Origin: a virus
IMG/VR virus record: IMGVR_UViG_3300020596_000041
Coordinates: 1-44,510 of that record
DNA: 44,510 bases
Strand: one strand, 5' to 3'
Below are positions 2,856 to 39,522 of this stretch, piece by piece (the stretch's first letter is position 1; every line of letters begins with the position of its first letter). Both the position numbers and the translations under genes were made by a program. Below the pieces are notes generated by a model. That model worked only from the letters and a program-made list of their open reading frames with translations. It was not told the origin of the DNA and made no database searches.

Positions 2856-2989
2856 CTCGCAATCATGCCTTTCCGTCCGGCATTTGCGAAGTGTTCGGAA
2901 CCGTGGATTTCTTTAGTTTTCTTACCGCCTAGGCTCCCCGTATACTGAGATATTTTCTTGATGTCCTCTTTGCTTATTATCCGTCCCAT
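2822..2989 (-). CDS. small basic protein with KGG-like motif, 55 aa
   Basis: Begins MGRIISKEDIKKISQYTGSL, then GGKKTKEIHGSEHFANAGRK, GMIARWGTKRKKKDV. The GG-K...GSEHF..AGRKG arrangement loosely resembles the short KGG (stress-induced/conidiation) motif, but this is weak. Its ATG overlaps the stop of the upstream gene as TAATG, a coupled arrangement. Confidence 0.6.
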   Translation of the reverse strand: MGRIISKEDIKKISQYTGSLGGKKTKEIHGSEHFANAGRKGMIARWGTKRKKKDV

Positions 2990-3156
2990 TATTTTAATCT
3001 CTTATCCAAGGGTAGCACATTTTGACAGGTTTCGTCATATCCATTTGTTGCACATACATGAGAATTATATTGCTTCATGCGTCCAGGATAGTCGCTATAA
3101 GTATATATTACGATTAATACCATTATTGCTAGTAAAAAGTACATAAAGTTATTCAT
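2989..3156 (-). CDS. small membrane-anchored protein, 55 aa
   Basis: N-terminal hydrophobic helix (residues 4-18, FMYFLLAIMVLIVIY), then a short polar domain with two cysteines (residues 35 and 44), a layout that suggests an anchored or exported domain with a possible disulphide. Possibly an envelope or superinfection function (inference only). Its stop overlaps the next start (TAATG). Confidence 0.6.
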   Translation of the reverse strand: MNNFMYFLLAIMVLIVIYTYSDYPGRMKQYNSHVCATNGYDETCQNVLPLDKRLK

Positions 3157-3247
3157 ATTTTCTTTAGTCTCTCTATTGTTTTGTTTGTTTTATATCTTAT
3201 TTCTGCTTACTTATTCATAATAAGCAGTATATAAAGTATAAAGCTAT

Positions 3248-3441
3248 TTAACGTCTGACTTCATTACACTTAAAAGGACTATTGTTAAAAAACTTATCAT
3301 TTAGTAATCTTTTGATAACTTTATTTTTGTCGTCATCCGTTTTAAGTACTTCGTGAATTATCGAACCAGGCAACAGTTGACTAGAAAATATAACATTCCT
3401 AGATTTTTGCTCTACTGTTAGCTTTAAGTATTTTTTTTCAT
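3248..3441 (-). pseudogene. small gene interrupted by a one-base shift in an A-run
   Basis: A strong ribosome-binding site (GTGAGGTGAATAAT) precedes ATG 3441, but the frame stops after five codons. The run of eight A (plus-strand T 3431-3438) directly follows the ATG. With nine A the frame would open to about 64 residues: MKKKYLKLTVEQKS..., ending at TAA 3248-3250 with ...CNEVRR. Frameshift, sequencing error or slippage at the A-run are all possible. Confidence 0.6.
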
Positions 3442-3475: not shown

Positions 3476-3712
3476 CTATGCCATTTTGTTTGTATCCTTA
3501 TCAAAAACGTATTGCCTAAATGCCGTTATAGCTTCGAATAGCATTTTTTTATTTTTGCTTTTCTCTTCTAATGAATAGCCATAGCATAATACTGTTGCCT
3601 CATTGTCTCTATAGTTTATTTTTGGCTTCATTCCATAATGGGAAAATAAAAATTCCCTAAAATCATCCCGTTCAACTTTCATTACCTCTACTTTATAAAT
3701 ATAGTTATACAT
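3476..3712 (-). CDS. hypothetical protein, 78 aa
   Basis: Unrecognised soluble protein. Charged, with FREFLFSHYGMKPK near residues 18-31 and an amphipathic C-terminal helix. Preceded by an excellent Shine-Dalgarno (AGGGAGGTGA, 7 bases before ATG 3712). A 16-codon leader frame and a stem-loop lie just upstream. Confidence 0.7.
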   Translation of the reverse strand: MYNYIYKVEVMKVERDDFREFLFSHYGMKPKINYRDNEATVLCYGYSLEEKSKNKKMLFEAITAFRQYVFDKDTNKMA

Positions 3713-3755
3713 ATATATTCACCTCCCTTCTGTTTGGTTTATATAAGTTTTTCAT
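3705..3755 (-). CDS. possible 16-aa leader peptide
   Basis: ATG 3755 opens a short frame (begins MKNLYKPN, ends NIYV) that overlaps the start of the 78-aa gene by 8 bases. Its potential ribosome-binding site (AAGAGGATAGAA) is the 3' arm of a 13-bp hairpin. Could control the downstream gene, or be chance. Confidence 0.3.
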   Translation of the reverse strand: MKNLYKPNRREVNIYV

Positions 3756-3803
3756 TTCTATCCTCTTGTCGGTTAAATAGTCACACGAATCAAGAGGATA
3801 GAA
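3756..3803 (-). promoter_or_regulatory. 13-bp inverted repeat masking a ribosome-binding site
   Basis: TTCTATCCTCTTG (3756-3768) and CAAGAGGATAGAA (3791-3803) are perfect inverted repeats around a 22-base loop. Read leftward, the 3' arm ends one base before ATG 3755. No T-tract follows, so this fits a translational hairpin better than a terminator. Confidence 0.55.
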
Positions 3804-3811
3804 TCAAAAAC

Positions 3812-4117
3812 TTAAACTTTACTAAAAGATACGTTAAAATCTTTACTTTTTATATAATCTATGGCTTGTCCTTCAGATTTATGTAGGTTTTTGGGTATGT
3901 CGGACCTTACTAGCCGTCCATAATTAGACGGTGTATAAAATTCAGTGTATCCTCTAGCTTTTAATGCTTGCGATACTCTCTCTTCAGACCCATATAGCCC
4001 GTAATGGTTTATTGACCTTTTTTTGCTACCGTTAATTATGATAGTCGTGAAGTATTCGCCAGAACATCCGTATATACCCGCTGTGTAACCTACTTTTAGT
4101 GTTGTGAATGATTTCAT
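3812..4117 (-). CDS. hypothetical early protein, 101 aa
   Basis: Unrecognised. Begins MKSFTTLKVGYTAGIYGCSGEY. ATG 4117 is chosen over an upstream in-frame ATG at 4174 because GAAAGGAGGTGA lies just before it and the promoter's -10 box (4145-4150) lies between the two. It has a strong sigma70-like promoter with a 20-bp palindrome between -35 and -10, so it is probably tightly regulated. Confidence 0.75.
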   Translation of the reverse strand: MKSFTTLKVGYTAGIYGCSGEYFTTIIINGSKKRSINHYGLYGSEERVSQALKARGYTEFYTPSNYGRLVRSDIPKNLHKSEGQAIDYIKSKDFNVSFSKV

Positions 4118-4144
4118 ATAACTCACCTCCTTTCTGTTAAGAAG

Positions 4145-4174
4145 AGTATAACAATGCATTGTTATAGATGTCAA
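4145..4174 (-). promoter_or_regulatory. sigma70-like leftward promoter
   Basis: Reading leftward: TTGACA (4174-4169), 18-bp spacer, TATACT (4150-4145). Full match at -35 and five of six at -10. The spacer is filled by the palindrome at 4147-4166, so a bound repressor would block RNA polymerase. Confidence 0.75.
4147..4166. promoter_or_regulatory. 20-bp perfect palindrome, probable operator
   Basis: TATAACAATGCATTGTTATA is perfectly self-complementary and sits between the -35 and -10 boxes of the leftward promoter, overlapping the -10. This is the usual arrangement for a dimeric repressor site. The repressor is not identified. Confidence 0.75.
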
Positions 4175-4220: not shown

Positions 4221-4433
4221 TTAATCTTCTTCGATGGTAGCAACGCGGCCTGTACCTCTTGTTACATGATCGGGAAATTCATCTCTTAGATTACGATCAA
4301 TGATTTTTATTGTCTGTGCTATGTTTTTTGTTGGGTCATTTTTTAGATCAAAAATAATGCTTATCTTCCATGTATACCGGCCATGATTATTCAATTTAAC
4401 TTCAATTGAAGAGGTTCTAGGTTCCATAAGCAT
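4221..4433 (-). CDS. hypothetical protein, 70 aa
   Basis: Unrecognised. Begins MLMEPRTSSIEVKLNNHGRYTW and reads as a small beta-rich protein (WKISIIFDL) followed by a helix (AQTIKIIDRNLRDEF). It overlaps the upstream gene by 17 bases, part of a three-gene coupled unit read from the promoter near 4900. Confidence 0.65.
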   Translation of the reverse strand: MLMEPRTSSIEVKLNNHGRYTWKISIIFDLKNDPTKNIAQTIKIIDRNLRDEFPDHVTRGTGRVATIEED

Positions 4434-4722: not shown

Positions 4723-4876
4723 TATCTTTGTCTCTTGTTGGTAAAAACCATTTTTTCTTACTTCTTCCGACAGTAAACCATGCGATCTTCTCGTTTTTCA
4801 TCCTATAGGTTATAGCACGTACTAACACGCCTTCAATGATTGCCTTCTCTTTTTTAGTAATTAATCTTGTTTCCAT
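4715..4876 (-). CDS. small basic protein, 53 aa, probably leaderless
   Basis: Begins METRLITKKEKAIIEGVLVR, with a second half rich in Lys, Arg and Trp (WFTVGRSKKKWFLPTRDKDN). First gene of the leftward block. There is no Shine-Dalgarno, and a good -10 (TACAAT) ends 8 bases before ATG 4876, so the mRNA should start at or within 2-3 bases of the start codon. Confidence 0.65.
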   Translation of the reverse strand: METRLITKKEKAIIEGVLVRAITYRMKNEKIAWFTVGRSKKKWFLPTRDKDNG

Positions 4877-5665
4877 TAACTCTTATTGTATAGGGAATAG
4901 GGATATTGACAAGTGGCAAAAGATAAGAACTTAACAGAATAACAACATATAGGAACATGAGTAACAATTATATACGCGAATGACTAATACAAGTATAACA
5001 ATGGTGACATAGGCGTTTATGTAAATGAAGAGGTGAGATTGTACAGGGTATCACGGTATCGTGTCTTAGATTGCATCCTATGACGTTGTTTTAGCTTACA
5101 TTTTCTCATTAAATAGGAAGCTAGGCATAAGGAAGATAAAAGAAGAGAGAAAGGATTATAGGAAAGGAAAGGGACAATAACAGATAAGAGTATGAGAATA
5201 GAGAATAAAGAATAGAGAATAGCTAGTTGAGAGTAAGTAAGAGTAATAAGTGATAAGGATTAATATTTATTGAGTGTTAGGAATAATACAGGAGGATAAA
5301 GCGAAAGCGTATTGATGAAGAAGAGAATAGAGCGAAGAGAATAGAAGGGATCACGTCATTCTATTTGCCTACACCCTTTACGTACAAACAAACGCTCCAA
5401 CCGTTCCTAGATTATCACCTCTATAGGCTCTATCAACCATCGTTCACCCTTATTTAGCCTCAGAATTATGTCGTATAACTTTTATTGTGCGACATGATAG
5501 CCTCAAATACCTAGGGGGTAGTGGTAGCACGTGAGCTGACCGTGCGTGCCTGTAAATTTAGTTATCCTCTCAACATGAACTCAACATGACCAACTGTGGG
5601 GAGCGGGTACCGCCAGCGTTGGTAAATGAGCATTTTATGAAGACTCACATAGAGCGAGATCCTTA
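4877..5665. other. gene-poor region: possible origin, packaging or regulatory site
   Basis: No convincing gene; open frames are all shorter than about 15 codons. It contains a long purine-rich tract (about 5128-5345) with repeated AGAATAG-like units (5194-5222 and 5321-5345), an AT-rich patch near 5259-5271, ATGTCG/CGACAT inverted repeats (5468-5473, 5490-5495), GCACG/CGTGC (5527-5531, 5541-5545) and a direct repeat CTCAACATGA (5569-5578, 5580-5589). Being just upstream of the terminase genes, it could hold a packaging site or an origin; neither is proven. Confidence 0.45.
4885..4912 (-). promoter_or_regulatory. sigma70-like leftward promoter
   Basis: Reading leftward: TTGTCA (4912-4907), 16-bp spacer, TACAAT (4890-4885), then 8 bases to ATG 4876. 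Predicts a leaderless or nearly leaderless transcript for the 4876-4221 genes. Confidence 0.6.
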
Positions 5666-24726: not shown

Positions 24727-25227
24727 ATGCTGTATTCAATTTTTAATGGTCCGATGCCGACAACCGCAGCTCAAGCTGTAGTTACTACTGGTACAGCAAT
24801 AAAGACAATGCTTCAGGTAAAAGGCATTACAGCTCTTCAATTTAAAATAAAAGAGTGGGGTATCTCATTTGATGGAAGTGCAGCAGCAGCTCCGATAAAA
24901 TGTGAACTTTTAGAAACTGGTACAGTATTTGCAACAGTTACAGCAGCAGCAGCAGCAGATATCACAAAGTTTGAAAATCCAAACAATCCCACTTCAACAA
25001 CTTACTTTTCGGTAGGAGTAGCAGCAACAGGTTATACAGCAACGGCAGAAGGCACAATAACAGCAGTAAGAATGTTTGATGCTCAACTTATTGCTCCTAC
25101 TAATCAATATGTAAAACAATTTCCACTAGGACTAGAGCCAATGGTTAATGCCGATTCGGCTCTTAGAATTAGAGTTACAGCAGCAGCAGCAGTAAACGCA
25201 TATTGTTATATAATTGTGGAGGTGTAG
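24727..25227 (+). CDS. probable virion structural protein, 166 aa
   Basis: Ala/Thr/Val-rich beta-type protein. Two Ala runs are encoded by GCA/CAG trinucleotide repeats (near 24942-24957 and 25179-25191). Ends NAYCYIIVEV; a 14-bp part of the 3' end is repeated just after the stop, suggesting a small local duplication. Confidence 0.55.
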   Translation: MLYSIFNGPMPTTAAQAVVTTGTAIKTMLQVKGITALQFKIKEWGISFDGSAAAAPIKCELLETGTVFATVTAAAAADITKFENPNNPTSTTYFSVGVAATGYTATAEGTITAVRMFDAQLIAPTNQYVKQFPLGLEPMVNADSALRIRVTAAAAVNAYCYIIVEV

Positions 25228-25241
25228 GCATATTGTTATAT
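25198..25241 (+). repeat. 14-bp direct repeat at a gene 3' end
   Basis: GCATATTGTTATAT occurs at 25198-25211 and 25228-25241, 30 bases apart, the second copy just past the stop codon. Confidence 0.6.
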
Positions 25242-38322: not shown

Positions 38323-38523
38323 ATGTCCCATAATAAACGCAAATATAGGAAATACGACTCTTCGCAGGATGCCTTTCTCAAGTTGGTTGAGGACCTTCAA
38401 ATGGCACTCCACTATCTCCCCACCGTCGAAGATCTTTTTGAGGGATTCGGCATGCCGCATCGAACAACGTACAACAAGCTGAAGAAGCGCAAGGAAGCAA
38501 AGGAAGGTAAATCACAGCGATGA
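38323..38523 (+). CDS. small basic protein, possible DNA-binding, 66 aa
   Basis: MSHNKRKYRKYDSSQDAFLK opens it; about residues 35-58 (VEDLFEGFGMPHRTTYNKLKKRK) could be a helix-turn-helix. First gene right of the control region, so a regulator is plausible but unproven. Overlaps the next gene (ATGA). Confidence 0.55.
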   Translation: MSHNKRKYRKYDSSQDAFLKLVEDLQMALHYLPTVEDLFEGFGMPHRTTYNKLKKRKEAKEGKSQR

Positions 38524-39207: not shown

Positions 39208-39522
39208 ATGAAAACACAACAAGATAAAGTTTTACAGTTACTAAAAGCATCAGGATCTAGGGGTGTTAATTCCTACGACCTTACATATCTCCACGCAATT
39301 AAACAAGCACCGACTCGAATCTCCGAATTAAAAGAACAAAATCATCGGATATTTTCACGCACAGAGAAGAATAGAAGCGTTACCTACATTTTACAAAGCA
39401 ACTTTGTCCCCACCACCAAGAACAAAGAAACTGATGAAGAATATGTTTGGATATACGAAGGCGATTCAGCGAAGCGGATATTGCTATCGAAAATAAAACC
39501 GATACAGACATCAATAGTATGA
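39208..39522 (+). CDS. probable helix-turn-helix protein, 104 aa
   Basis: MKTQQDKVLQLLKASGSRGV, NSYDLTYLHAIKQAPTRISE, LKEQNHRIFS is the typical winged-helix-style opening of small phage proteins that use a helix-turn-helix (about residues 5-48). Likely a transcription or replication accessory; the target is unknown. About 250 bases without a clear gene follow. Confidence 0.65.
   Translation: MKTQQDKVLQLLKASGSRGVNSYDLTYLHAIKQAPTRISELKEQNHRIFSRTEKNRSVTYILQSNFVPTTKNKETDEEYVWIYEGDSAKRILLSKIKPIQTSIV

Follow-up and report, generated by a model that had tools for sequence, protein, structure and literature searches.

A perfect 20-bp palindrome, TATAACAATGCATTGTTATA (4147–4166; symmetric at 20/20 positions), was examined in the virus record IMGVR_UViG_3300020596_000041, the whole of which (positions 1–44510; 44,510 bases) is referred to here as the window. 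The palindrome overlaps a sigma70-type promoter on the minus strand (4174–4145), made up of the -35 box TTGACA (4174–4169) and the TG-extended -10 box TATACT (4150–4145). The two boxes match the consensus at 11 of 12 positions and are separated by 18 bp, in keeping with the near-consensus hexamers and 16–18 bp spacing of promoters of this type. A preliminary description had reported the sequence and coordinates of both elements correctly, and had placed the palindrome between the -35 and -10 boxes. It does span 16 of the 18 spacer bases, but it also reaches into the -10 box, taking in its initial TATA, and a two-fold symmetric site therefore lies across two promoter elements.

The promoter stands 27 bp before an open reading frame (ORF) for a 101-amino acid (aa) protein on the minus strand (3815–4117, or 3812–4117 with the stop codon), the ATG of which (4117–4115) is preceded by the Shine-Dalgarno sequence AGGAGGTGA (4131–4123, minus strand; read directly), in line with the earlier assignment of the promoter to this gene. 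The genes flanking the palindrome (4221–4433 and 3815–4117) are on the same strand. Judged from the promoter spacing, transcription would start near 4138, which would place the palindrome at about -28 to -9 with its centre near -18/-19.

When the window was shuffled 1500 times with its dinucleotides preserved, 70 shuffles had a perfect palindrome of at least 20 bp, and none had one inside a promoter matching at least 11 of 12 consensus positions. In the window itself, TATAACAATGCATTGTTATA is the only perfect palindrome of at least 14 bp, and 4174–4145 is the only promoter reaching 11/12. Among the other loci examined (411,786 bp; calculated without L001, L003–L012 and L058, which are the window itself or were picked by promoter pattern), 20 promoters of at least 11/12 were found, and the longest perfect palindrome in any of them was 10 bp. 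Palindromic hexamers are also depleted in the window (378 observed, compared with 673 and an sd of 25 over 200 shuffles), many being rare or missing, and GAATTC, CTTAAG, CAGCTG and GAGCTC do not occur at all. As phages are known to avoid restriction sites (PMC6286503), and this genome is otherwise poor in palindromes, so long a palindrome has probably been kept for a reason.

It is therefore predicted, with reasonable though not high confidence, that TATAACAATGCATTGTTATA is an operator at which a bound dimeric repressor shuts out RNA polymerase. A homodimeric protein, encoded by the phage or by its host, would bind one 10-bp half-site per subunit, and when bound at about -28 to -9 would keep RNA polymerase off the strong sigma70 promoter. 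Its release, presumably in response to a signal, would switch on the 101-aa gene and possibly also a 78-aa gene beyond it, through an intergenic hairpin. Repression is favoured over activation because near-consensus boxes with an 18-bp spacer should fire unaided. An operator lying over a promoter is a textbook arrangement and ordinary in kind, and one other viral promoter with an identical layout was found, in an unrelated phage (L058), where TTGACA and AA are followed by a different core, TATAACTCACTTGAGTTATA, that overlaps the -10 box.

The 101-aa protein is one of a small, unnamed group of related phage proteins, characterized by the motif KVGY..G.YGCSGEYF...G.YG.E.RV. Relatives were found in six viral records, five of them distinct (L061 and L062 are one sequence in the part examined). 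Identity to the 101-aa protein was 61% for L059, 54% for L060 and 51% for L061 and L062, whereas in L063 (87%) and L002 (88%) it was confined to the first 23–25 residues. The 101-aa sequence had no match above threshold in PHROGs, NCBIfam or PADLOC, only a sub-threshold match to LytR_C in Pfam (E 0.21), and no matches in the phages, plasmids and genome_contigs sets; the L060 protein likewise had none in phages. An AlphaFold2 model built from four sequences had a mean pLDDT of 79.9 and a pTM of 0.70, with three strands followed by helices (the single-sequence fold was poor, pLDDT 41). As no Foldseek match in PDB or BFVD reached E 0.001, and the best VIA Z was 4.2, no fold family is claimed. By eye, short one-helix membrane-like ORFs in the window (2989–3156, minus strand) and in L060 (at -174) share YN..VCA..G....C, and in L002 and L063 short ORFs with a hydrophobic stretch precede the family gene.

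A same-strand promoter of at least 11/12 was present within 650 bp upstream of the family gene in all five distinct relatives, a number reached in none of 1000 shuffles (mean 0.08), the 650-bp limit having been chosen after the farthest promoter was seen at 615 bp. In several relatives, the promoter first precedes other short ORFs. The palindrome was also sought in these records, as the preliminary description had proposed, and was present in none of the six with up to three mismatches. A strong promoter accompanies the 101-aa gene, and the palindrome does not. Conservation upstream of related genes, which would support an operator without defining one, is lacking among these distant relatives, and the outcome that the preliminary description regarded as refuting its proposal, a promoter retained where the palindrome is lost, is in form what was seen (5/5 against 0/6). 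It is not considered decisive, as the relatives are distant (51–61% identity, or 23–25 residues only) and repressor-operator pairs change quickly; the absence shows that the site is specific to a lineage, and does not show that it is without function.

Parts of the palindrome were also followed in the relatives and elsewhere. The word TATAACAAT occurs once in L059, at 16 nt from the start of the gene on its upstream side, and once in L063, just after its promoter. An equally good result was given by 17 of 2000 shuffles of the five upstream regions, though the word was picked after looking; for the shorter ATAACAAT, 144 of 2000 shuffles did as well. TATAAC is also -10-like, and half-sites in relatives were not used as evidence. 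The 16-mer core was found at 44 loci in viral contigs, every site being within a stop-free frame of at least 64 codons; none is symmetric to the full 20 bp, and 15 of 45 rows of matches (including L013) extend by one further pair. Separately, ten viral loci (L003–L012) representing seven distinct promoters have TTGACA, 16 bp and TATANT with TATAAC/GTTATA arms, which reach TATAACA/TGTTATA in five of the seven.

Besides the absence from the relatives, several observations weigh against the operator. The palindrome by itself is weak evidence, being expected by chance in about 5% of cases. The exact 20-mer was not found in any other viral contig, and the only match to its 18-mer core in genome_contigs is inside a Flavobacterium coding gene (SusD-like, a name read from the translation). 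No second full copy with up to three mismatches is present in the window, which leaves a single site; several operators are usual in many phage immunity regions. Finally, no repressor gene adjoins the palindrome and family scans revealed no adjacent helix-turn-helix gene. The two-fold symmetry across the spacer and -10 box, where a dimeric repressor would block RNA polymerase, bears out part of the earlier proposal of an operator; the repressor itself was not found. Two proteins encoded elsewhere in the window are weak candidates for this role: a winged-helix-like protein (39208–39519) with a match to Pfam HTH_39 (E 0.00055; a score of 20.2 bits, below the cut-off of 21.3), and a 66-aa protein (38323–38520) picked by eye only.

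The repressor could instead be a product of the operon itself (the 101-aa protein, the 78-aa protein or a smaller one encoded downstream), acting on its own promoter through the palindrome in the manner of an antitoxin. Short operons that repress themselves typically have one operator over the -10 box, which counts in favour of this explanation. However, the 101-aa model includes no helix-turn-helix and has no close structural match, no DNA-binding family was detected for the 101-, 78- and 55-aa proteins in PHROGs, NCBIfam and PADLOC (nor in Pfam for the first two), and the 101-aa family occurs without the palindrome in related records. Autoregulation is considered improbable, though it is the best placed of the alternatives to a separately encoded repressor.

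Somewhat less probable is that an AT-rich promoter has acquired a symmetric spacer by accident and that no protein binds there. The frequency of 20-bp palindromes somewhere in the shuffles and the absence of the site from 6/6 related records are both compatible with chance, but the failure of any shuffle to place the palindrome in an 11/12 promoter, and its persistence in a genome depleted of palindromes, are not readily explained in this way.

The position of the palindrome within the spacer recalls MerR-family promoters such as that of BmrR, whose operator is centred near -24, and at which a spacer-bound dimer twists the DNA to correct for a spacer that is too long. A MerR-type activator is very unlikely here, as the spacer is 18 bp and the boxes are near-consensus, whereas spacers of 19 or 20 bp were recorded in all 28 MerR-type promoters surveyed (PMC7722741); in addition, the palindrome is not centred in the spacer and runs into the -10 box.

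Least likely of all, by a small further step, is a site gated by methylation, in which a methyltransferase of the host or the phage would recognise the central ATGCAT and so set the activity of the promoter. This hexamer occurs once in 44,510 bp, at 4154–4159 in the centre of TATAACAATGCATTGTTATA, against about 14 copies expected, but it is not special among the many palindromic hexamers that are rare or missing, and scans of part of the ORFs in the window revealed no methyltransferase. The related idea that the promoter is a restriction- or methylation-sensitive switch, with the modification state of incoming phage DNA setting expression of the YGCSGEYF small-protein operon, is given the same very low credence. 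A role at the transcript level was also considered and is unlikely, because the site is upstream of the likely transcription start and a 91-nt stretch around it folds no better than shuffles (z 0.0). An 8-bp hairpin (-3.8 kcal/mol) could form in single-stranded DNA of the palindrome, as in any palindrome, and was given no weight.

Downstream of the 101-aa gene, a 78-aa ORF (3476–3712, minus strand) that has a Shine-Dalgarno sequence of its own could be co-transcribed with it, as the preliminary description had suggested for the smaller genes. However, a long imperfect hairpin without a following T-run is located between the two genes (3744–3814, minus strand; -29.9 and -28.2 kcal/mol on the two strands, z about -6.7), and with a structure of -29.9 kcal/mol separating them, transcription may continue into the second gene only in part or in a tuned manner. 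The hairpin had no match in Rfam and may stabilise or attenuate the message. Further along, at 3240–3441 (minus strand), a good Shine-Dalgarno sequence and ATG are followed by a stop within six codons, immediately after eight consecutive A residues. By eye, about 60 further codons are open in a neighbouring frame, which may reflect an assembly slip or slippage.

Elsewhere in the window, a sequence search located a second exact copy of AGTATAACAATG, which consists of one half-site and two further bases, at 4992–5003. As many matches were obtained in 2 of 100 shuffles, and on the minus strand the copy resembles an extended -10 box without a good -35 box. An exact direct repeat, GCATATTGTTATAT, in two copies 30 bp apart (25198–25241), is similar to an arm of the palindrome into which a single base has been added. 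A promoter-like element, TTGTCA-16-TACAAT (4874–4912, minus strand), ends 8 bp before the ATG of a 53-aa ORF, and a transcript from it could be nearly leaderless.

The DNA between 3400 and 5000 had no similarity to phage records, and a literature search with the letters of TATAACAATGCATTGTTATA gave no mention. The terminase had no match in viral contigs or in the six relatives and two weak matches in phages, both to one Vibrio phage, and the portal protein had no match in phages. The capsid protein is distantly similar (25.8%) to that of Bacillus megaterium phages and the endolysin is similar to those of Gram-positive phages, which may be a hint to the host.

If the operator assignment is right, it identifies the promoter under regulation in a phage that is otherwise without annotation, and TATAACAATGCATTGTTATA would be an exact DNA bait for its repressor. 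It would also draw attention to the small, undescribed YGCSGEYF family, which has strong promoters upstream in all five distinct records.

The arrangement can be compared with several known systems. In lambda-like immunity regions, several related operators are found with a divergent repressor gene beside them, whereas here there is a single full site and the flanking genes share a strand. In operons with autorepressed toxin-antitoxin promoters, a DNA-binding antitoxin and a toxin are encoded; the operon proteins here had no family match above threshold, and the structure search gave no clear match. Single-operator phage repressor sites such as that of PY54 Cro (PMC4488713) offer a likeness in that one symmetric site controls a phage promoter; however, neither cro nor cI was detected beside the palindrome here. 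The SaPI1 Stl operators (PMC9638917) are near-palindromic, overlap promoter elements and are thought to repress by blocking RNA polymerase, and the same mode of action is predicted here for a single gapless 20-bp site over the spacer and the -10 box.
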